Shown: positions 1,590 through 24,101 of the stretch, one piece after another
Layout: each line of letters opens with the position of its first letter
Numbering within the stretch: the first letter of the stretch is position 1
The notes under the pieces: generated by a model
What the model was told of the DNA's origin: nothing
The model's database searches: none
What the model saw: the letters and a program-made list of their open reading frames with translations, nothing else
Virus record (IMG/VR): IMGVR_UViG_3300033571_005471
Coordinates: 1 to 27,230 of that record
DNA: 27,230 nucleotides
DNA from: a virus
Direction: 5' to 3' (one strand)
Made by a program: the position numbers and the translations under genes

Positions 1590-1795
1590 CGCGTTCTGCC
1601 AAGCGAAGGGTTGCGTTCTTCGGCGGTCAGGCTGGGGTGGTCGTACCAGTCCGGATACTCCTGAGGCTGGTCTTCGTCGGTGGGGTCGTCGTCGGTGGGG
1701 GCGTAGAGAGTGGGGGTCACAGGCGAGTGGTGCAGACCTACCAACTCTACCGCTAAGGAACCGGATTTGCACCTATGATGAGGCAGATCCGTCAC
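1586..1795 (-). CDS. Hypothetical acidic small protein, start uncertain
   Basis: The C-terminal part is rich in Asp, Glu, Pro and Tyr (TDDDPTDEDQPQEYPDWYDH, then SLTAEERNPSLGRTR). The stop overlaps the next gene as ATGA, which supports translation through this frame. The start is unclear. GTG at 1795 gives 69 aa; a TTG or GTG further in is possible; the open frame extends to 1987 but would then run antisense to the first 180 bases of the sigma gene. If 1795 is right, its start lies only 10 bases from the divergent sigma start at 1806, leaving no room for separate promoters. Confidence 0.45.
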   Translation of the reverse strand: MTDLPHHRCKSGSLAVELVGLHHSPVTPTLYAPTDDDPTDEDQPQEYPDWYDHPSLTAEERNPSLGRTR

Positions 1796-1805
1796 ACTCG
1801 TCCCG

Positions 1806-2867
1806 GTGCCTGCCAGCTCCACCCAGTCCTGGTGGCTCGAATCGATCGGCCGGGTGGCCCTGCTCACGCCGGCCGAGGAAATCGAGCTGGGCACCGCGAT
1901 CCAGCGATGGCAGCAGCATCCCGACCCGTGCCCGCCAGGCATCCGGCGCAGGGGCATCCGAGCCCGTGACCGATTTGTGAGCGCCAATCTCCGGCTAGTG
2001 GTCGACTACGTGGCGAAGCGCTGCCACCGGCTGGCCAAAGCGTTTGACCGCGAAGACCTGATCCAGGCGGGCAACATGGCCCTGATCACCGCCGCCGAGC
2101 GATTTGACCCGACCCGTGGCTATCGGTTCTCCACCTACGGCTACTGGTGGATCCGCCAAGGCGTCAACTTATGGGTTGACAAGCACGGCCGGTCGATCGC
2201 CATTCCAGGTTCCCACTGCCAGCACCTGGCGAAACTGGGCCCGATTACGCAACGACTAGAGCGCGAACTGGGCCGCCTGCCAACACAATCTGAGATTGCC
2301 GCCGAGCTGGGCGTCAGCCTGAAGGTCCTAGCAGCAGTGCGCGAAAACGGCAGGGGGATCGGATCGCTCGACCAAGTGGTAACCGATGACGGGCTGGAGC
2401 TTGGCAGCACGGTGGCGGTGTGGGACCGGTCGCTAGAGGATGAGGAAGATGAGCGCGAAAGATGGCGGCAGGCTGAGCAACTGCGCGGCCTGATCGCCAG
2501 GTTGGCGCCGCAGGATCAGCGGCTGCTGTGCATGGCTTGGGGCCTAGACGGTGTGGAGATCCCCCGCGCAGAACTGGCTCAGCAGGAGGGCCTGAGCACA
2601 CGGGCGCTGGAGGTGCGGCTAGAGCGGCTGCAGGCGTCGCTGGCGGCTGAGTCGGTGCAGCTGGTGCTGGTGGCTGTGGCACGGGAGAAGGTTGAACTGA
2701 AGAAGTGGCCCAGGCGAAAACGAAAGCGGCCAGATCAGCTAGTGTTGGTGCCAGTCGAAAGGGTCAAGCCCAAGCCTGTTGTCTTACGCAGATGCGGATC
2801 CAATTTGCGAAACTGGCTGACGCTGCGGGAGCGGCTGCGGCTGGCGGTTAGTAATGGGAGTTGGTGA
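1806..2867 (+). CDS. Sigma-70 family RNA polymerase sigma factor, phage-borne, divergent -35 reader
   Basis: It directs RNA polymerase to promoters. Visible in order: region 1.2 (about 9-40, WWLESIGRVALLTPAEEIELG); region 2 (about 56-134, RFVSANLRLVVDYVAKR, EDLIQAGNMALITAAERFD, YRFSTYGYWWIRQ); region 3 (about 135-210); region 4 (about 225-280, LRGLIARLAPQDQRLL, WGLDG); and a very basic tail (296-350, KKWPRRKRKRP). Region 1.1 is absent. The region 2.3/2.4 residues for -10 opening are kept (F108, T110, Y111, W114, W115, Q118), but the usual ITR is VNL. In region 4.2 the helix is STRALEVRLER instead of TRERIRQIEA, so two key -35 contacts are lost (E to A267, R to V270). The start is GTG at 1806; TGA at 1779-1781 closes the frame upstream. 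It lies opposite the late operon. It may read the repeated late element (inference). Confidence 0.93.
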   Translation: MPASSTQSWWLESIGRVALLTPAEEIELGTAIQRWQQHPDPCPPGIRRRGIRARDRFVSANLRLVVDYVAKRCHRLAKAFDREDLIQAGNMALITAAERFDPTRGYRFSTYGYWWIRQGVNLWVDKHGRSIAIPGSHCQHLAKLGPITQRLERELGRLPTQSEIAAELGVSLKVLAAVRENGRGIGSLDQVVTDDGLELGSTVAVWDRSLEDEEDERERWRQAEQLRGLIARLAPQDQRLLCMAWGLDGVEIPRAELAQQEGLSTRALEVRLERLQASLAAESVQLVLVAVAREKVELKKWPRRKRKRPDQLVLVPVERVKPKPVVLRRCGSNLRNWLTLRERLRLAVSNGSW

Positions 2868-4545: not shown

Positions 4546-4887
4546 TCACGGCTGGGGCTCTGGAGATGCCTCAGTCTGTTGAGTCCCATTGATCCACCCA
4601 TCAATCCGCGCCGCCCGATCCGGGCAGTGCCAGGGTTGGTGGGTGAACCACTCCCGCCAGTCGCTGGAGCCCTTGGCCCCGTTGCACCGCCGGCAGGCCG
4701 GCACTAGGTTTTCGGCCACGGTCAGCCCGCCACGGGAGCGCGGCAGCACGTGGTCAAGGGTATCGGCTGGGTCGGCGCAGTAGCCGCACTGGTGGTCCCA
4801 CTCGGCGAAAATCCGGCGCCGGAACCTGGCTGTGGTGACTTTCTTGGGTTGGAGCTCGGTCTGATCGATCAGGTGACCGAAGGGCAT
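4546..4887 (-). CDS. HNH endonuclease, 113 aa
   Basis: A small DNA endonuclease of the McrA-like HNH fold. The motif is complete: CGYC (C34, C37), DH (D45, H46), a central N60 in GGLTVAENLVPACRRCN, and a second Cys pair (C65, C68) for structural zinc. The basic N-terminus (KKVTTARFRRRIF) fits DNA binding. The start ATG at 4887 overlaps the endolysin stop by one base (TGATG). In many long-tailed phages a single-copy HNH next to terminase helps packaging. Here it lies between the lysis genes and the metallophosphoesterase, with terminase not in view. A packaging role or a selfish homing role are both possible. Confidence 0.93.
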   Translation of the reverse strand: MPFGHLIDQTELQPKKVTTARFRRRIFAEWDHQCGYCADPADTLDHVLPRSRGGLTVAENLVPACRRCNGAKGSSDWREWFTHQPWHCPDRAARIDGWINGTQQTEASPEPQP

Positions 4888-10000: not shown

Positions 10001-11833
10001 GCGCTGCGGCAGCCTGGCGCTTGCCGTGTTGTTGAGGATCAGGCTGCAACGCCGCTCGGCCACGGTGCGGGTGTCCACTACGCGGCGGATGTAGACGCGC
10101 CTGCCCACTACGGCGTTACCTGGCGCTTCATTGGTGCCGGATTGCAGAGGCGCTGCGGTGATGCCAATACTTGCAGGGCTGGAGCTGCTCCAGGCGCTGC
10201 TGCTCAGCGTTGCCCGCCAGTCAGCGCCAGCGGGGTTGTCGATCCAGATCCGAGTGCCTGAGGCCAGCGAATAGCCCAGCGATTGCAACACCGCCGGATT
10301 GCTGGCGCTGTTCGGGTCGATTGCTAGGCCGTTGGTTAGCGTGATCGCTGAGCTGCTCGCGGCGGCTACCACGCCCAGTTCAATGCGGCGAATGTTGGAT
10401 GTTTTCTCGCTGAGGTTCAGCGGCACCCGCACCCGGCTAACTGCCCAGTTCTTGTCCTTGCCAAATGCGAAGCCCTTGTAACCCTTGGCGAGGGCAGAGC
10501 ATCCGCCGAAAGTGGAATTGCCGCCGTTGTCGGTGATCTCCCCGCCGGAGTCCACCATCGTGACTTCGGACTGGCCGATCCCGAAGATCGAAACCTTCTG
10601 GATGTAAGCGTTGTTAATTGCCGAAATGTGCCGGGTCTGGCGTGCAGGATCGCGGCGCAAGTTGTCCGGGTCGGCATCGATGTATGCCTGATAACCTTCC
10701 GTGGTGTTGGCCAGGTTTACCCAGTTTCCGCCTTGATACACCTGCCAGCAGCGCATATCTTTCTGCTGGTTGGTGCCAGTAAAGTTGGCGCAAACCATGG
10801 ACTTCAGGCCGCTGAGCTTGGCGCCGTCCCAGAACGCGCCGCCCATGCCGTATTCGGAGCGTACCGACACATTGAAGATGTACGGGCTGGCGCCTCTGGT
10901 GGTATCCCACGCGCTGGAAGGTGCTTGGGTCTGATCAATCGGGCCGACGATCTCATACTCACTGGCACGGGCCGCCAGCAGGGCGCTGCCCAGATTGGCG
11001 CCGGCCCCTACCGTGGATTGGATCTTGGCGTAGAACGTATCAAGCTCGGCCTTGCTGGCCGGCTGGAAGGGATCTAGAAGGTGGACAGATTCGGTGTGCC
11101 CAATCTTGTCCATCACGGTGAAGTCAAAGAAGAATCCCGTGCCGGAAATCTTCAGAATGGCCCGCCGGTTGCTGTAATCCGCCGCCTCATCTGCAAATGC
11201 GGGAACCCAGTTGGGACGGATGGTGGTCTTGCGCAGGTCCAGTCCGCGCATTGAGCACCCACGGGGCAGCAGCACGCCACCAGTCGAGGGGTTGAATGCA
11301 ATCAGCTCGGCCGGGGTCGGATCCTTTGCCGTGCCCCAGCTCGCCAGGCTGGTAGACCCACTACCGGGATCGTTCAGGGCGATGTGGACGCCACCGCTGA
11401 GCACGATCGTTACGCAGTCCACGTGAGCCCGTGGATCGCTGAAGGTGTACCAGTTCTTGCTGGTGATGATCGCCGCTTCGATTGCGGCGCGGTTGATTGT
11501 CTTAAAGGGCCGGGCCGAGGTGTAGCCGCACTCTAGGCGCTGCAGCTCGATTCGCCTCAGCTTCTGCGCGATTACCTCTTCGTCGGTTGCCCCCGCTTCG
11601 TGGCTGTTGTAGGCGCCGCCAACGAATCGGTCTGAGCCGATGTAGGGATCAACGTAGAGGGTGAACGGTGCATTCAGGGGGTCAGCAACCGCAAGCGCAC
11701 CCGCCACCACACGAGCATTGCCGCCGAGCTGGCGAAGCATGTCGATAAGAACGGCGATCTGCCCCTTTGCATCCGCCTGACTGGCAGCCACGTCAAGGGC
11801 GCCGCTTTGGCCTGCCCGCTGCAGCTGGCTCAT
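7019..11833 (-). CDS. Large tail fibre / host-contact protein, 1604 aa, cyanophage-like
   Basis: A virion surface protein, probably for host contact. After an N-terminal helix (MSQLQRAGQSGALD..) that may attach to the tail, residues about 50-430 form a module with LYVDPYIGSDRFVGG, LECGYTSARPFKTINRA, FNPSTGGVLLPRGCS and ASPYIFNVSVRSEYGMGG. I know this module from structural proteins of T4-like marine cyanophages. A likely sugar-binding stretch follows near 680-720 (YYRQGTVVKHAGKHW). Further on are mixed beta-rich segments, including a second cyanophage-style block near 1080 (TVTIYVQSTATDRNLDQMF). Near 1500 is a short insertion-type domain (YQILSLGSTTQANWNTLAG). The last 500 residues are encoded by visibly more A/T-rich DNA, suggesting acquired segments. 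The start follows late element A by 39 bases. Confidence 0.88.
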   Translation of the reverse strand: MSQLQRAGQSGALDVAASQADAKGQIAVLIDMLRQLGGNARVVAGALAVADPLNAPFTLYVDPYIGSDRFVGGAYNSHEAGATDEEVIAQKLRRIELQRLECGYTSARPFKTINRAAIEAAIITSKNWYTFSDPRAHVDCVTIVLSGGVHIALNDPGSGSTSLASWGTAKDPTPAELIAFNPSTGGVLLPRGCSMRGLDLRKTTIRPNWVPAFADEAADYSNRRAILKISGTGFFFDFTVMDKIGHTESVHLLDPFQPASKAELDTFYAKIQSTVGAGANLGSALLAARASEYEIVGPIDQTQAPSSAWDTTRGASPYIFNVSVRSEYGMGGAFWDGAKLSGLKSMVCANFTGTNQQKDMRCWQVYQGGNWVNLANTTEGYQAYIDADPDNLRRDPARQTRHISAINNAYIQKVSIFGIGQSEVTMVDSGGEITDNGGNSTFGGCSALAKGYKGFAFGKDKNWAVSRVRVPLNLSEKTSNIRRIELGVVAAASSSAITLTNGLAIDPNSASNPAVLQSLGYSLASGTRIWIDNPAGADWRATLSSSAWSSSSPASIGITAAPLQSGTNEAPGNAVVGRRVYIRRVVDTRTVAERRCSLILNNTASARLPQRNTVLQTDPARSNGAIGRVLAGGGEEVLLVTASGTGPLPGSGVLRTGEITIRRGAASKTYASGTYYRQGTVVKHAGKHWQATRTFTSSGSSPDPALWGETFVHMPSDFNPEDSISQEAPILVLDTDTSDVDDSTTLNINWATIWTSAGPVRDQYRSATDYLGAYALLRALGFTDAAAHTALVPRTAATRDRDPSSATDFPTAPSGGAATGLGNWAVEFRRPSTIRLYNHQWEWAGFGNNSKAMPAVQGDMSEFNKFTYYFTSAAGGRVTPKGSNEDGFEITPKGLEDIATGATISLESLGGQTLDEAQRTDFPNGIQVGATAQLQDVVITGTTEFSSQSEAKINRAGAVRLASIAQLRATGGNATVASTDAALEAAPEAVTIGGLEAWRQAQRLVSAATGTVTIYVQSTATDRNLDQMFDTPPTSPEFAIPTMARAAEYANAVIGSGNQTAEIKIAPGLYDPASVWECNVQFRASDPTQTDWPLIFDSNINDNHFDGSGYGNLTTRVNFRTFTLQLRDNASAGNQLHLNVIARQILCRRGVDYLGGIHHLGVPELIKLVAEGSLPVASFLFSSVALPSGAFTTNTATNVDTLLNQLRISNSRISTYDAWTSNAAIRLEGSATDVVNLRHTVFGPALPSHKDSLGAIREPYIATNGLVVLRLSNIYLRGNTTITSASMGVTNVVPLSGDAHYGSAPVAAPWTWHQFHHTFLGSIGNEPVSIDQMGDRQSYSQTAEAGTRSWFRTADGTNYLPNHIHLLDSSGAEPSDNNSGPFLDQFIHAKRSLVLRVSFETQFSAASTGPISQGFVGRFGSNGYNTAKTRGVLLGNEGVLDQERGGTVFLGSRCRLALTADNTALTIFKVAGLSAAQTTQILPKYGIDVNSAAAGVTYQILSLGSTTQANWNTLAGTSGLTYAVGNRITAAVNGSTLADTTGLVEPFYGEPHPLGTSTKRYNPVITTAALNQADGTFFLNVGLRSYARGISPEHGFNINPNIVL

Positions 11834-11855: not shown

Positions 11856-11874
11856 TGCCCTCAGGCTATGGAGC
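11856..11874 (-). promoter_or_regulatory. Late element A (candidate promoter) before the large fibre gene
   Basis: Minus strand GCTCCATAGCCTGAGGGCA. The core TCCATAGCCTGA starts 39 bases before the ATG at 11833. The TAG stop of the 347-aa gene is inside the element. TAGCCT fits the TAnnnT pattern of a -10 box; no consensus -35 is seen 17 bases upstream. The same 17 bases (GCTCCATAGCCTGAGGG) recur at 24083-24101, and the 12-base core at 21801-21819. Confidence 0.55.
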
Positions 11875-18186: not shown

Positions 18187-21100
18187 TAGCTCAGACCCGC
18201 CTGGCGCCTGATGGTGACGTTGTTCACGTTCCGTTTGTGCGCCAGCGCGGCGCCTTGCTTGGCAGACTCGCGGCCGATCCGTTGCGCCTCATCTTTGGTG
18301 ACAAAATCGAGCTCGCCAATTTGCACGGTCTCGAATCGGATAAGGCCATCAACGCTGCCCACACCCATGCCAGCAGCGCCCATGCCGCCGTCGATGCCGC
18401 CGCGCTGGAATGGCACGCTCAGGCCCTCCATGCCCCGCTGGAACGGCACGCTCAGGCCGCTGGTGGATGCTGCAGCGCTGCCCTGCTGGGATGATGTGCC
18501 AGCGGTGGGGGCAGTGGCCTGGAATGGCACGGACAGGCCCCGCAGGCTGGCGCTGTTGATCGATTGGAGCGCCTCGGTGGCCTCAGCCGGGATGATGCTG
18601 CCGGCTTGGTAGGGGACGAACAGTTCGGGGCCGTTTTCGCCGACTGGGTAGGGGCGGCCTGCTGAGACGCCGCCGCCTAGGGCGCGGGGGAGCGCCGCAG
18701 GAAAATCGGTCATCGTAACGGCCGACGATGAATCCGCATATCTGCCAACATCGGCCATGTTGCCGCCACTAGGCGCAGCACCCGCAACCGCCCCAAGCGC
18801 CTTAAGGATGGTCTGCAGCACGATCATCGTCATCTGTTTGGCGATGATTTCTGCGGCCATCTGCGCAAAGTTCTGGGCCACGTCTTGGAAGAATCCGGCC
18901 AGCACCTCTCGCGCACTCGCGGCGCCGGTTATCAGTTCCTGGAACGCATTGCCAAACGCGCCGCCAATGCCATCGGCGCTGCGGCCCGCCAGCTCGGAGA
19001 TGCTGACCATTTCAGCCAGATCGGCTTTAAGTTGGCCGATCTGCAATGCAATGGCAGCCGGCTGGTCTAATTGCGCTGCAACGGCTTGGTCAATAAGCTC
19101 AATTTGCCTCGCATATAGGCCATTCATTTTCTCCAAGGCTGCAAGGTTCGCTGCCTTGTCTTCCGAATCTTGGATTGCATCAATGCCTTTTCTCAACACA
19201 GCAATCACAAGTGCCTGATCTTGATAGATCTTGGCCTTTTGAAGCTCGGCTTCAATCACATTACTGCTTACGCCTTCCATGGTTAGGCGGTTGCGCAGCT
19301 GCAGCTCCTTTGCATTGTTTTCCAGCTCTTCATTCTGATCAATCAGCCCTTGAGTTAGCTTCTGCGTAAATTCTATTCTATCAAATTCGCGCAGTTCGCC
19401 AATTTGCTCTTTGATCAATGCCAACTCTTTTTCTGCCTGCTTCACTCGCTCGCGGGCCTGGGCAATGTCGCCCTCTCCCTTCACGTCCCGCACGGGGGCC
19501 GGCTGAAACCCTGGCATGTCAGCGCCGGGGAGCAGCCGTTGTGACATTGGCACTGCGGCGCCGGTTGCAGCGCCGCTCCAACCGCTGATCCATGGCCGCA
19601 CTATGTTCTGTTCAAGCGCCCGCCACGGATCGCCACCGTTTAGAGCGTTGACGTGGCTGGTTACATGAGTGCCAAATGTTCGCCCGGTTTCACCTTGAGT
19701 GCCAAGAATGCCCCCCTTTGCAAGATCCATTCCAGGCGATACGTTCACCTTGTCAAAATGACCGAGCAGCATTTCATACCGCTTGCCGTCAACGCCGATG
19801 AATTCGCCTGTGATCCAGTTGCCGTACCCCTTGCCGCTGGCACCCCGCCCTGAGCCTTGGAATCCGGTTTTAATATTGGTCAGCGCGACAGGCGCGGGGA
19901 CCGCAGCACCGACGCCGCCAGGTAGCACCACGTCATAGCCCGACTGCTCAGCATCCGGGTCACGTGTCCATCTGGTTGTAGCACCGCCTCTGAATCCGCT
20001 GCCCGCCCCGACAGCGCCCCCTGCACTTCCCATCACCTGCGCTCTATTCTCCAGCGCATCAATCCGCTGGCGCTCGGTCATGTTCGCCAAGGTTTGCTTG
20101 TGGACGGTTTCGGCCTGCTGCAGTGCGCGGCGTGCATCGTTCACGGTTCGCTGAGCTTCTGCAACCCGTGAGGTGCCTTCGCTGAATCCCATCATGAATT
20201 CAGTGAGCATCTTGGCCGCTGCCCGAGCTGGGCCCATTAGACCCTCACTCCAGAGATTGAGCGCCCTTGATTGGATAGTTTGAGTAAATTCAAACTGCTT
20301 CAATGCAAGCGATTTGCTGTTTTCATACCGCTGATTATCCAGCTCGATTGCATTGCTTTGCAGGCCTTCATTTGTCTGCAACTGATTTTCTGCAAGGCGA
20401 GCCTGCATCCGAATTTGCTCGGCCTCGTATTTGCGGCCGGCAGCTTCGGCGGCTTTGGCGGCTTTTTCGGCGGCTTCGCCACCAGCCGTGGTGCCGTTTG
20501 TAGTGCCACCCGTAAGCGGTGGGATAACTGGCGCAGGCGGCACGCCAGGCATAGCCAGCGCCCTTTCGTTTTGCTGCCTTAATCTGTAATCAGCTCGCTG
20601 CTGTTCTATATTCCGCTGGCGCATTTCCGCCATCATGCCTTGCTGCGTTAATGGGTTGAGCCCCATTGCCCGCACCGCAGCATTAGCATTACGCGCAAAC
20701 TGCGCCTCCCTGTCCCTTGCCCCGGCGGTATTATTTGCCTCATCAATCAACCGCTGAATCTCGCTAACTACAGCGGTCGCTTGCGTTAATGCCCACTTGA
20801 AAACAGGCTCTAGCGTCTTGCCGATTGTTTGCGCCAAAACCTGCACAGAATCGGTCAGGGTTGACATTCGACCCCTTAAGGTGTCGCTTTGCGCAATAGC
20901 ACCATTGGCGTACTTTCCGCCACTATCGGTCAGCTTAATCAATGCAAATTCAACAGCTTCAGCGCTGATTTGCCCCTTTTCAAGCGCTTTTTGAAACTCA
21001 ATGCCTGTTAATCCATACTCTTTACGCAAGACCTGCTGTAGCGCAACGCCACGCTCTTGGAACTGGAGCAGCTCTTCGCCCTGCAGTCTGCCCTTTGCTT

Positions 21101-21779
21101 GAACCTGGCCATAGGCGGTGGCTAGGCCGCCAAGCTCCGCACCAGTGGCGCCGCTGACATCGGCTAGGCGCCTGGTAATGTCAACAACCTTTTCTGTCTC
21201 AACGCCAAACGCCTGAAGGCGCTTTGCCGTGTCAATCAGCTCTGTGCTGGTGAACGGAGTAACCGCGCCAAGCTGCTGCAGCTGCTGAACTATGTCCTTT
21301 GCTCGCTCGGCGCTCCCTGTCAGCACCTCTAGGCTTCTGGTTTGCGATTCAAGCTCAGCTGCGTTGCCAAATACGAACCTGACGGCCTCAATCCCTGCGT
21401 AGGCCGCAATTAGGCGGCCCGCGGCAGCTGCCATGCCGGCAATCCTTGTATTGGTCTGGCTTGCCGTTCCATCTAGTCCTTGGAGCCTCCCCTCCAGCCG
21501 CTGAATCTCAGCCCCGTACTTCTGGAACTCCCGGCCACCGATCCGAGCCTGTTCCTGCAGCCCGCGCAATGCCGCCACGCTGGTTCGGATCCCGGCAATC
21601 GTGCCGTCATTGGCGCGGGCGAGCTGCAGCGTTGCGGTGCGCAGCGCTGTTTTCTGCTGCTTGGTTACCTGCGCGGCCTGGCCCAGATCCTGCAGCGACC
21701 GTTTCACCCGATCGATATTCCCGCCGCCCTTCACGTCGGCCGAGATCTGGATGGCGGTTTCCATGCTCATCCGGGCCAT
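18186..21779 (-). CDS. Tail tape measure protein, 1197 aa, with degenerate M23-like insert
   Basis: It sets tail length and helps DNA passage. The N-terminal helices (RVKRSLQDLGQAAQVTKQQK) lead into the conserved tape-measure region (about 130-330; VTPFTSTELIDTAKRLQAFG, GATGAELGGLATAYGQVQAK). Long Gln/Ala/Glu-rich coiled coils follow. Near 600-730 is an M23 peptidase-like segment: LLGHFDKVNVSPGMDLAKGG, GTQGETGRTFGTHVTSHVN. The last motif has two His separated by three residues instead of one, so activity is doubtful. A hydrophobic stretch lies near 985-1015 (MTMIVLQTILKALGAVAGAA). The C-terminus repeats GLSVPFQ three times. The gene starts 38 bases after late element B and follows a terminator-like hairpin. 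Confidence 0.95.
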   Translation of the reverse strand: MARMSMETAIQISADVKGGGNIDRVKRSLQDLGQAAQVTKQQKTALRTATLQLARANDGTIAGIRTSVAALRGLQEQARIGGREFQKYGAEIQRLEGRLQGLDGTASQTNTRIAGMAAAAGRLIAAYAGIEAVRFVFGNAAELESQTRSLEVLTGSAERAKDIVQQLQQLGAVTPFTSTELIDTAKRLQAFGVETEKVVDITRRLADVSGATGAELGGLATAYGQVQAKGRLQGEELLQFQERGVALQQVLRKEYGLTGIEFQKALEKGQISAEAVEFALIKLTDSGGKYANGAIAQSDTLRGRMSTLTDSVQVLAQTIGKTLEPVFKWALTQATAVVSEIQRLIDEANNTAGARDREAQFARNANAAVRAMGLNPLTQQGMMAEMRQRNIEQQRADYRLRQQNERALAMPGVPPAPVIPPLTGGTTNGTTAGGEAAEKAAKAAEAAGRKYEAEQIRMQARLAENQLQTNEGLQSNAIELDNQRYENSKSLALKQFEFTQTIQSRALNLWSEGLMGPARAAAKMLTEFMMGFSEGTSRVAEAQRTVNDARRALQQAETVHKQTLANMTERQRIDALENRAQVMGSAGGAVGAGSGFRGGATTRWTRDPDAEQSGYDVVLPGGVGAAVPAPVALTNIKTGFQGSGRGASGKGYGNWITGEFIGVDGKRYEMLLGHFDKVNVSPGMDLAKGGILGTQGETGRTFGTHVTSHVNALNGGDPWRALEQNIVRPWISGWSGAATGAAVPMSQRLLPGADMPGFQPAPVRDVKGEGDIAQARERVKQAEKELALIKEQIGELREFDRIEFTQKLTQGLIDQNEELENNAKELQLRNRLTMEGVSSNVIEAELQKAKIYQDQALVIAVLRKGIDAIQDSEDKAANLAALEKMNGLYARQIELIDQAVAAQLDQPAAIALQIGQLKADLAEMVSISELAGRSADGIGGAFGNAFQELITGAASAREVLAGFFQDVAQNFAQMAAEIIAKQMTMIVLQTILKALGAVAGAAPSGGNMADVGRYADSSSAVTMTDFPAALPRALGGGVSAGRPYPVGENGPELFVPYQAGSIIPAEATEALQSINSASLRGLSVPFQATAPTAGTSSQQGSAAASTSGLSVPFQRGMEGLSVPFQRGGIDGGMGAAGMGVGSVDGLIRFETVQIGELDFVTKDEAQRIGRESAKQGAALAHKRNVNNVTIRRQAGLS
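18410..18535 (-). repeat. GLSVPFQ repeat in the tape-measure C-terminus
   Basis: Three near-identical DNA units (plus strand: ctggaatggcacgctcaggc, ctggaacggcacgctcaggc, ctggaatggcacggacaggc) encode GLSVPFQ each time; two lie close together and the third about 85 bases away. This suggests recent small-scale duplication in the tail's distal end. Confidence 0.6.
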
Positions 21780-21800
21780 GCTTTATTCGTTCGCCGGTCC

Positions 21801-21819
21801 TACGGTCAGGCTATGGATC
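21801..21819 (-). promoter_or_regulatory. Late element B (candidate promoter) before the tape measure
   Basis: Minus strand GATCCATAGCCTGACCGTA: core TCCATAGCCTGA starts 38 bases before ATG 21779. It lies about 10 bases downstream of a terminator-like hairpin (21830-21859). A new promoter would be needed here if that hairpin stops the upstream transcript. Unlike elements A and C, no stop codon of an upstream gene is involved, so conservation of the core cannot come from coding. Confidence 0.6.
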
Positions 21820-21829
21820 CCCAAACAGC

Positions 21830-21859
21830 AGAAAGGCCCCAGTCTCCCAGGGCCTTTCT
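21830..21859 (-). terminator. Terminator-like hairpin between chaperone and tape measure
   Basis: A perfect 10-bp inverted repeat, AGAAAGGCCC ... GGGCCTTTCT, with a 10-base loop in the 130-base gap. On the minus strand the second arm ends TTTCT and is followed by GCTGTTTG, a modest U-rich tail; on the plus strand the arms read the same way. It would end or attenuate the transcript from the tail-tube/chaperone genes. Confidence 0.6.
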
Positions 21860-21909
21860 AAGGCAAGCAATTGCCGAGCTTTCGCTCCAACTGCTTTAAA
21901 AGCATAGCA

Positions 21910-22721
21910 CTATAAATTCTGCCGCTCCACCTGGCGGACCGCACCCAGGTACTCCCGCTCCAGCAGCCGCAGGTCCTCCAGCAGCCACACCCGGTCACCG
22001 CGCTTCACGCCCTCATCTCTGGCGCACTGAATGAACACCCCGTAATCGAGGCCCACGGGTCCGGCCATGCTTACTCGCCACTGGGTCTGCATCTTCAGGA
22101 ACCAGGCCAGCGCTTCGCAGTTCTCCGGCAGGATCCCGAACGTCTTGGGCCGCTGCTCTACCTCGGGCACCTCCAGGCCGAACACGGCTGCAGCGTCTGC
22201 CGCATCCTTGCCGTCGTCACTATCGCTCTTCGCGGCGCCAGCGAGGAACAGCGCCGCGTCTATGAGTTTTTTGCTCGGAAGCCTCCAGCCTTCGCTGCTG
22301 ACTTCTCAGTAGGCCGGCCGACGCTTTCGGTCCACGCATTGAAGATTGCCGACGCGGCGCCTTGCATCTGCAGCATCCTGGCCTTGGTGGCTGGCGTGAA
22401 CTCCAGCGGCTGATCATCCTCGCCCACCACCTCATCACCCCAGCCACAAAGCACCTCAGCTGCCAGGTCCTGATAGGTGCAGGGGAGCGGCTCGGTGACG
22501 GGCTGCAGGTCGGAGCTGCCCCGGTAGTCCCTAAGCGCCTCGTAGCGCTTGACTGTGGCCACCACTAGCGCGTTGTGCTGTTCGTTCAACTCATCGCACT
22601 GTTCTTGATCGAGCATCCGAAAATGCGCGGTGAAGGTGTAGGCTTTCTTTACTCCTGATTTAGACGGCAGGTCAACACTTACCGGCCACTCGATGTGGTC
22701 CGGCTGATACAGGTGAAACAT
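21910..22721 (-). CDS. Tail assembly chaperone GT fusion by -1 frameshift, about 270 aa
   Basis: Predicted -1 frameshift product: 152 codons of the G-like frame, slip at A AAA AAC (22266-22272), then 118 codons of the overlapping frame. The extension starts LIDAALFLAGAAKSDSDDGK and includes ENCEALAWFLKMQTQWRVSM, GPVGLDYGVF and WLLEDLRLLEREYLG. This pattern fits small phage proteins next to tape measures (DUF1799-like, from memory). In lambda the equivalent gpGT brings tape measure and tube protein together during assembly and is absent from the virion. Separate translation of the second part from GTG 22185 (91 aa) is possible but less likely, since its reading frame continues open back to the slip site. 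Confidence 0.8.
22231..22286 (-). promoter_or_regulatory. Programmed -1 ribosomal frameshift signal
   Basis: Three parts in order on the minus strand. An SD-like GGAGG lies at 22286-22282. Nine bases later is the slippery heptamer A AAA AAC (22272-22266), in frame with the G-like gene and followed by TCA TAG. After a 7-base spacer there is a stem-loop with 8-bp perfect arms, CGCGGCGC (22258-22251) and GCGCCGCG (22238-22231), and a 12-base loop. The layout matches the E. coli dnaX signal (upstream SD, A AAA AAG, downstream stem). Confidence 0.82.
22260..22721 (-). CDS. G-like tail assembly chaperone, zero-frame product, 153 aa
   Basis: The short form of the chaperone pair, lying between tail tube and tape measure as in lambda. 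It begins MFHLYQPDHIEWPVSVDLPS, a beta-rich opening, then helices (QEQCDELNEQHNALVVATVK, YQDLAAEVLCGWGDEV, ATKARMLQMQGAASAIFNAW). The ending GGFRAKNS stops at TAG just after the slippery site. Many G-like proteins have such a beta N-terminus, a WGDEV-like helix and a variable tail. Expected to coat the tape measure during assembly in excess over the frameshift form. It starts 5 bases after the tail-tube stop, without a clear Shine-Dalgarno, so coupling is likely. Confidence 0.82.
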   Translation of the reverse strand: MFHLYQPDHIEWPVSVDLPSKSGVKKAYTFTAHFRMLDQEQCDELNEQHNALVVATVKRYEALRDYRGSSDLQPVTEPLPCTYQDLAAEVLCGWGDEVVGEDDQPLEFTPATKARMLQMQGAASAIFNAWTESVGRPTEKSAAKAGGFRAKNS

Positions 22722-22726
22722 GAGGA

Positions 22727-23920
22727 TCAGAAGAAAACGAGGCGGGTTTCGTCGTTGCCAGCTGCGGACTTGGGCAGCGCGGTGAATGGGATCTGCAACA
22801 TGCTGTTCCCGTCAGAATCAGAGAACGAGAGGTCGCCGCTGATTGCGGCCTTGGGACAGAAGAAAATGGAGCTCTCGGTAGCCGTCGTGCCCTGTTGCAC
22901 AACGAACGGGCCATCGCTCGCGCCGCTGTTGTCTGCTGCGGCGGTAAAGAAGTTCTTCGCCGACACAGGCGGGTTTTCGATCGTGATCGTGCCGTTCGGG
23001 TTGGGGCGGTCGGTGATGCGGGCTTGAGGCTCGCAGCCGATCAGTGAGCGGAACACGGTTGACAGGCCCCAGTCAAACGTGAACCCTTCAGAGCAGGGAT
23101 TAAAGCCCTGGAACCGCAACGCCTTGGTGTGGGTCGGGGTGACGGGCACCGGCTCGGCCTGGTTGCTGTAGACGAATCCTTCAGCGCTCCTAGCGGTGGG
23201 GGTGGTGTAGCGGCCAACGCCCGTAATCGTGAACGTGCCGTAACCGTTCAGAGTGCTGTTGAGAACCGGGCTGCCGCGGAATCCTTCGATTCGGTGAACA
23301 TTGGCGCCGTCTTTCACCGCCACGATGGTGCAGCTGCTGCCGTTGCCAAAGGTGCTGATCGGCTGGAGCAGGGACAGTGCGGGGATCTTGTAGCCCACTG
23401 CGCCACCAGTGAATGACGCCGTAGAGGGAACTACGGTCACCTGCCGGCTGGCGCCGTCGTGCGCCACGATCACGCCCTTATGGCCGGTGTTGGCGCCGCT
23501 GGTGATCTCGATTGGCAGGCCCAAGTAAGCGTCCGTTGCAGGGTTGCTGCCGCCTAAGTCCGCCAGGGTGAGGGTGTTGGCGCCGCCTGCGGTGGCGGTG
23601 CCGGTCAGCTCGGCCATTGCCGAGACGTTCATACCGGCTGCCTGCAGCAGGGGCGTGAACCGGGGCGCAGTCGCCGCAACGCCAGAACCGCCCCACTCGA
23701 ACGTAATCGTTACCGCCACGTGTTCATTGGTCAGCGGCTGGCGGTCGGCGCCTAGGAACCCTTTGATCAGGGCACGCTCCACGCGAGTACCGGTGATCGG
23801 GTTCACCTCCAACGACACGATCTTCACCGCGTCGGTATTGGCGATCGAGCTGGCCAGGGTGCCGTAACTGGTTTCGGCCTTCACCAGCGCGAAGCTGTTG
23901 CGAATCAGGAGAGCTGTCAT
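22727..23920 (-). CDS. Major tail tube protein, 397 aa
   Basis: It forms the non-contractile tail tube. The N-terminus (MTALLIRNSFALVKAETSYG) and the following SLEVNPITGTRVERALIKGF and EHVAVTITFEWGGSGVAA have the beta pattern of siphovirus tube proteins. A segment near 110-180 (GLPIEITSGANTGHKGVIVA) looks like a small inserted beta domain seen in other phage structural proteins. The C-terminal half returns to tube-like strands (TFTITGVGRYTT, LRFQGFNPCSEGFTFDWG). At 397 residues it is longer than lambda gpV, in line with the insertion. ATG 23920 overlaps the 47-aa gene's stop (TGATG). Position before G/GT and tape measure supports the call. Confidence 0.85.
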   Translation of the reverse strand: MTALLIRNSFALVKAETSYGTLASSIANTDAVKIVSLEVNPITGTRVERALIKGFLGADRQPLTNEHVAVTITFEWGGSGVAATAPRFTPLLQAAGMNVSAMAELTGTATAGGANTLTLADLGGSNPATDAYLGLPIEITSGANTGHKGVIVAHDGASRQVTVVPSTASFTGGAVGYKIPALSLLQPISTFGNGSSCTIVAVKDGANVHRIEGFRGSPVLNSTLNGYGTFTITGVGRYTTPTARSAEGFVYSNQAEPVPVTPTHTKALRFQGFNPCSEGFTFDWGLSTVFRSLIGCEPQARITDRPNPNGTITIENPPVSAKNFFTAAADNSGASDGPFVVQQGTTATESSIFFCPKAAISGDLSFSDSDGNSMLQIPFTALPKSAAGNDETRLVFF

Positions 23921-24082: not shown

Positions 24083-24101
24083 TACCCTCAGGCTATGGAG
24101 C
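24083..24101 (-). promoter_or_regulatory. Late element C (candidate promoter) before the 47-aa and tail-tube genes
   Basis: Minus strand GCTCCATAGCCTGAGGGTA: core starts 36 bases before ATG 24063, and the TAG stop of the tail-terminator-like gene is inside the element, as in element A. Seventeen bases match element A exactly. TAGCCT is a possible -10; the -35 position (ATAACG) is not shared with the other copies. Confidence 0.55.

Follow-up and report, generated by a model that had tools for sequence, protein, structure and literature searches.

Sigma gene and its surroundings

The window, that is, the whole stretch of DNA that was analysed, has a length of 27,230 nucleotides and represents a complete IMG/VR virus record. 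The gene considered here is located on its plus strand:

1806..2867 (+): phage sigma-70 gene encoding 353 amino acids, GTG start; regions 1.2-4 plus a 74-residue C-terminal tail

The protein matches Pfam families PF00140, PF04542 and PF04539 above the cut-offs, which assigns regions 1.2, 2 and 3, and the open reading frame matches the PHROG phage-sigma family at 3e-46. The top NCBIfam match is TIGR02997 (cyanobacterial RpoD/SigA) with 160 bits, below the curated cut-off of 384.5. When the AlphaFold model was compared with the PDB using Foldseek, sigma-A chains matched best. The scans of Pfam, PHROG and NCBIfam gave no match to the gp55 family; host-type sigma-70 families were matched instead. 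The opposite strand encodes a siphovirus late operon with endolysin, tail fibre, tail proteins, tape measure and tail terminator. A first-pass annotation of this DNA had described a full-length sigma factor of cyanobacterial type, not of gp55 type, carried by a phage and not by a host chromosome, and antisense to late genes, and all of these features are found here. In the window's subgroup, the pN/pS values are 0.31 for the core of the protein and 0.28 for region 4. The open reading frame is a real sigma-70 factor under purifying selection, and the virus carrying it is an S-LBS1-like cyanosiphovirus.

The region upstream of the gene contains the following box:

1773..1780 (+): TATGAT -10-like box, different from the late element described below

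By-eye comparison of positions 1740-1785 with relatives revealed a TATGAT or TATAGT box with GGTTCCG or GGAACCG approximately 10-25 bp upstream, and this arrangement is kept in several of them. It is possibly the promoter of the sigma gene itself together with an operator. A scan for consensus promoters and terminators around the gene found none. Since this box and not the late element precedes the sigma gene, the arrangement is consistent with earlier expression by the host polymerase.

Promoter-reading regions

Two regions involved in promoter reading are located as follows:

2115..2174 (+): region 2.3/2.4, residues ~104-123, GYRFSTYGYWWIRQGVNLWV; the residues that melt the -10 and recognise -12 are retained
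2565..2654 (+): region 4.2 helix-turn-helix, residues 254-283; R266 and E269 at the -35 contact positions

The segment GY.FSTY.YWWI.Q of region 2.3/2.4 is invariant or nearly so in alignments of the relatives, in agreement with the earlier observation that the -10 melting residues are kept. In the E. coli sigma factor, an Arg and a His of region 3.0 contact the extended -10 sequence. Alignment with a cyanobacterial SigA places Ala and Ser at these positions in the window sigma, a substitution that agrees with an altered upstream promoter edge.

The helices of region 4, residues 254-261 and 265-283, are predicted with confidence in the AlphaFold model. Pfam Sigma70_r4 has no match in the protein, though the helix-turn-helix fold is still predicted. 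An alignment with relatives and host sigmas places R266 and E269 opposite E585 and R588 of E. coli. The first-pass annotation had assigned Ala and Val to these positions in a register that was off by one residue; the residues were therefore incorrect, while the loss of the contacts stands. Judged from the alignments, both -35 contacts of region 4.2 are lost in either register. It is important to note that one other sigma (L104) keeps both E and R in region 4.2, yet has a QLALF tail motif and a late element with one mismatch. The loss in region 4.2 is thus not strictly tied to the tail.

Late promoter element

The late element was first found by a repeat search upstream of three late genes of the window. 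It can be written as TCCATAGCCTGA-N4-A and is of the -10-only type:

24083..24099 (-): late element TCCATAGCCTGAGGGTA, upstream of the gene at 22727-23920; TAGCCT corresponds to -12 to -7
21801..21817 (-): late element TCCATAGCCTGACCGTA; the tape-measure gene starts 38 bp downstream, at 21779
11856..11872 (-): late element TCCATAGCCTGAGGGCA; the gene for a tail fibre of 1604 amino acids starts 39 bp downstream, at 11833

These are three exact copies of TCCATAGCCTGA on the minus strand (24099, 21817 and 11872), against an expectation of 0.06 at no more than one mismatch. The related phages provided 34 non-redundant sites, in which twelve columns of the element are conserved. Column 16 is A in 25 of the 34 (p ~6e-10), and if TAGCCT is read as -12 to -7, this A is placed exactly at the predicted +1. 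At six sites a start codon is found within one base of this position. No -35 signal was detected upstream: TTGACA-like hexamers at normal spacing occur at 5 sites compared with 4.9 in shuffled sequences, and single columns rise slightly, the highest to 0.45 bits. A -10-like core shared without a -35 sequence, as noted in the earlier reading of the late elements, is thus seen both in the three copies and in the null rate of the hexamers.

With at most one mismatch, the element occurs in 36 of the 46 records that belong to this sigma group (37 of 47 when S-LBS1 is included) and in none of 35 records that carry other phage sigmas. A control with the reversed pattern gave 4 of 46. The corresponding Fisher p-value of 2e-14 overstates independence because the records are related. 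The ten group records in which no element could be recognised include several short contigs. Within each record all matches lie on one strand, which is opposite to the sigma gene in those records where both were compared. The 15-mer TGATCCATAGCCTGA matches at least 120 stretches in IMG/VR; most of these were estimated to be chance matches, and they were kept out of the evidence.

A late element at 4676 lies downstream of the annotated start of the major capsid gene in S-LBS1 (L052:4621-6516). The true capsid start may therefore lie further downstream.

We infer that the window sigma is the reader of the late element. The prediction of a sigma factor that opens -10 boxes and does not read TTGACA, which had been made in the first pass, is supported by the retained -10 residues, by the lost region 4.2 contacts and by the co-occurrence of a matching element with this sigma group.

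C-terminal tail

The C-terminal part of the window sigma contains two copies of a short motif:

2658..2672 (+): clamp-binding-like motif 1, QLVLV, residues 285-289, two residues after the last region-4 helix; pN/pS 0.14
2673..2735 (+): disordered linker of 21 residues, 290-310, with the basic patch KKWPRRKRKR; pLDDT <50, pN/pS 0.57
2736..2750 (+): clamp-binding-like motif 2, QLVLV, residues 311-315; pN/pS 0.05, the lowest of the gene

The tail had been given as 55 residues, while 74 follow the last region-4 helix; they are predicted with low confidence by AlphaFold. In the window's subgroup, the two motifs (pN/pS 0.14 and 0.05) evolve more slowly than any other part of the gene, compared with 0.57 and 0.50 for the linkers. 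A beta-hairpin formed by the two QLVLV strands was considered and rejected, as the model has no strands there and a pLDDT below 50. Motif 2 is followed by about 35 more residues (window 2751-2864, RNWLTLRERLRLAV), which are common to several relatives and include a weak helix at 340-349. Other sister tails stop right after the clamp motif.

The sequence QLxLF is the consensus for binding to the bacterial beta clamp and is mostly found near the C-terminus in unstructured segments (PMC4549789). The tails of sister sigmas fit the QLxLF or QLxLxL-type motif exactly, while the two QLVLV copies of the window represent a weaker form. The tails of the relatives range from 29 to 102 residues and are mostly unalignable, and the motif occurs in them as QLSLF, QLALF (in two lineages), QLSLW, QLTLL, QLNLL, QLALPL, QLVLPL and QLSLRI. 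A second structure model, that of a sister sigma ending in QLSLFAA, likewise has an unstructured tail.

Generic regular expressions match the clamp motif in 32 of the 35 tails of the window's clade. The remaining three read QPTLPL, QLGLP and QPSFW, and only after these variants had been added were all 35 matched. Among phage sigmas with a diverged region 4.2, the motif is found in 29 of 36, compared with a mean of 0.94 and a maximum of 7 in shuffled tails; the strict forms are found in 9 of 36 compared with 0.09. Host sigmas with an intact region 4.2 have it in one case out of 23. A search of the C-terminal 42 residues of 471 proteins from these phages gave 17 motif matches, eight of them in sigmas and nine in the 463 non-sigma proteins. 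A further sigma scan, which returned mostly known members, found the motif in none of the other long-tailed phage sigmas. One group of phage sigmas from several loci (L389-L442) has a different C-terminal stretch, MLMSNPL.DTPLGH, without clamp motifs.

The basic cluster (~299-308) is absent from several sister sigmas, while the QLxL[FVL] motifs are retained there. The suggestion of the first-pass annotation that the basic tail might replace the -35 contacts is rejected as the main explanation for this reason: the patch is not conserved across the clade. The clamp-binding motifs had been missed. With them the interpretation is improved to that of a late sigma which is probably tethered to the host replication clamp.

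A gene for a DnaN-type clamp was found in none of 21 related phage records, whereas the positive controls matched; a search for T4 gp45-type clamps gave no match in 16 records, nor in any control. DnaN is present in the host genomes, and in the two that were read the sequence ends in VMPVQIR. Since the phage records have no DnaN-type gene, the natural target would be the host protein, and we infer from the motifs that the tail of the window sigma could bind it.

Similar ends are found in DNA methyltransferases (phrog_757) of sister phages, one ending in QLNLLSVA (L228:18058-18669, plus strand) and the other in VEQLSLVA (L231:12440-13096, minus strand). These clamp-binding-like sequences suggest that several phage proteins may be hooked to the host clamp.

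Sister sigmas and phylogeny

The clade of the window sigma is supported by an SH-aLRT value of 91 in a core tree of 230 columns. On this tree the tail motif was gained essentially once; tail, region 4.2 and element are therefore associated through retention in a divergent clade, not through repeated gains. An independent-contrast test of region 4.2 loss against the tail motif had too few independent pairs, and repeated co-evolution is therefore not claimed.

Two sister phages contain tandem sigma genes, of which the first type is canonical (SRERIRQ) and lacks a tail, while the other is diverged and ends in QLSLFAA:

L230-L232 (G013), 20207-21061 and 21225-21965: tandem sigma genes; a second case is L233-L234 (G015)

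The pair looks as if the canonical sigma served the middle genes and the QLSLFAA sigma the late genes. A 5.6-kb contig from a Synechococcaceae MAG (L135) encodes a clade member with both QLELF, in the place of motif 1, and QLSLW; this contig is probably viral DNA binned with its host. The KBS2A sigma, which has an intact region 4.2 and lies outside the clade, also ends in QLPLIP.

Proposed mechanism

We consider it probable that the sigma factor reads a -10-only late promoter while tethered to host DnaN, as a convergent analogue of the T4 gp55/gp33/gp45 system. According to this proposal, regions 1.2-3 would dock on the host RNA polymerase and melt the late promoter (TCCATAGCCTGA, with A at +1). 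Region 4 would be retained as a polymerase-binding domain that does not read a -35 sequence. In place of the -35 contacts, the motifs of the flexible C-terminal tail would bind the hydrophobic clefts of the host beta clamp. Clamps that remain on freshly replicated phage DNA would thereby act as anchors for the holoenzyme, and the late genes would fire after replication. A single chain could thus combine the role of T4 gp55 (-10 reading and a clamp hook on a long linker) with that of gp33 (a body on the polymerase flap and a hook on a short linker). Activation of late transcription by clamp binding, and its coupling to replication, belong to this proposal. The wider statement, that this is a second and independently evolved clamp-coupled late system, in which a sigma-70 factor without -35 reading and with a bivalent tether to the host beta clamp triggers late genes upon replication, is one towards which we lean on balance.

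A real though unlikely alternative is that the late sigma does read the -10-only element, but that its tail provides an extra contact with the polymerase, dimerisation or control of proteolysis, the timing being set by accumulation of the sigma. All of the promoter evidence holds without a clamp. Motif 1 adjoins region 4 and could touch the polymerase, and in phages of the phiEco32 type the late genes are run by a phage sigma and TAATGTATA, with no clamp mentioned in the part of PMC4331800 that is available. However, the tails of the sister sigmas end in textbook clamp pentapeptides on unalignable linkers, as in T4 gp55 (PMC2988020), and this argues for the clamp tether.

It is distinctly improbable that the element is an inter-gene recombination boundary or an activator site, and the sigma a host-like group 2 factor with a drifting C-terminus. 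The element frequently coincides with the end of a gene, in several cases immediately following a TGA stop codon, and S-CBS1 and S-CBS3 do have group 2-type sigmas with a canonical region 4. The A at +1, the start codons at about +1, the orientation on one strand and the restriction of the element to this sigma group speak, however, against this reading, as do tail motifs under stronger constraint than the core and a region 4 that has no signature of drift. Hardly probable is a role of the motifs in replication, in which the sigma would sequester the host beta clamp or tie the polymerase to forks: SocB does block replication through the clamp cleft (PMC9690074), but here they belong to a protein that looks like a functional sigma and is accompanied by a late promoter element, and a blocker would need no regions 1.2-4 under purifying selection.

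Comparison with known systems

The nearest named relative of the window sigma is that of S-LBS1 (SLBS1_A33, MG271909), with 76% identity over residues 5-293. It is likewise antisense to late genes and has both QLVLV motifs, and its genome has five late elements with at most one mismatch. Its tail is shorter, the last ~35 residues being missing. The S-LBS1 paper annotates the sigma only as RpoD-like, and no analysis of tail or promoter was found in it. RpsD4 of S-CBS1 and S-CBS3 and RpoD of KBS2A are also phage-borne cyanobacterial sigmas antisense to late genes, and in S-LBS1, S-CBS1 and S-CBS3 the sigma gene is located downstream of those genes. However, the S-CBS1, S-CBS3 and KBS2A proteins have a canonical region 4.2 (SRERIRQ, SREAIRQ, SRERVRQ) and no late element, and the tails of the S-CBS1 and S-CBS3 sigmas are short, unlike that of the window sigma. 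Phage-borne cyanobacterial sigmas are thus already known, as the S-LBS1, S-CBS1 and S-CBS3 examples demonstrate; according to a review, 65 of 153 cyanophages have one.

For the cyanosiphoviruses, the present analysis provides a late promoter predicted at base resolution together with a candidate reader. Exchange of Q for A in the two pentapeptides would be a direct test point, and it is available in the isolate S-LBS1. If the proposal is true, small cyanobacterial siphoviruses use the host clamp and a single sigma protein. Searches of an open-access library returned no description of a sigma outside T4 that binds a clamp, and none is known to us.

The sigmas of phiEco32 and 7-11 similarly combine a phage sigma with a short late promoter of -10 type (PMC4331800), but belong to another sigma lineage and read another promoter (TAATGTATA). 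Known binders of the beta clamp, such as transposases, DNA polymerases and Hda, also carry a C-terminal QLxLF-type motif in a disordered segment; no sigma factor is among those described in the accessible portion of PMC4549789.

The closest parallel in mechanism is the T4 system. T4 gp55 reads a -10-only late promoter without -35 reading, and these promoters are activated through the gp45 clamp, to which both gp55 and gp33 attach by epitopes at their C-termini (PMC2988020). The gp55 linker is divergent (PMC2988020) and has about 21 residues, while that of gp33 has about three (PMC7892883). The gp33 protein occupies the polymerase flap, which is the usual seat of sigma region 4. The window sigma resembles this system (PMC2988020, PMC7892883, PMC9690074), as far as can be read from its sequence, in the -10-only promoter, in the absence of -35 reading and in a clamp epitope at the C-terminus on a variable linker; as in gp33, the first hook is near region 4, and the second follows after a linker of 21 residues. 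It differs in being a full-length sigma-70 factor, one protein and not two, without recognisable relation to gp55. The hooks are of the bacterial QLxLF type and not the LDFL of T4, the would-be target is host DnaN, and the phages are unrelated cyanosiphoviruses. In published descriptions (PMC2988020, PMC9690074), only the T4 family links late transcription to replication by way of a sliding clamp. If the proposal is true, this strategy extends beyond T4 and can arise from a sigma factor of the ordinary host type.
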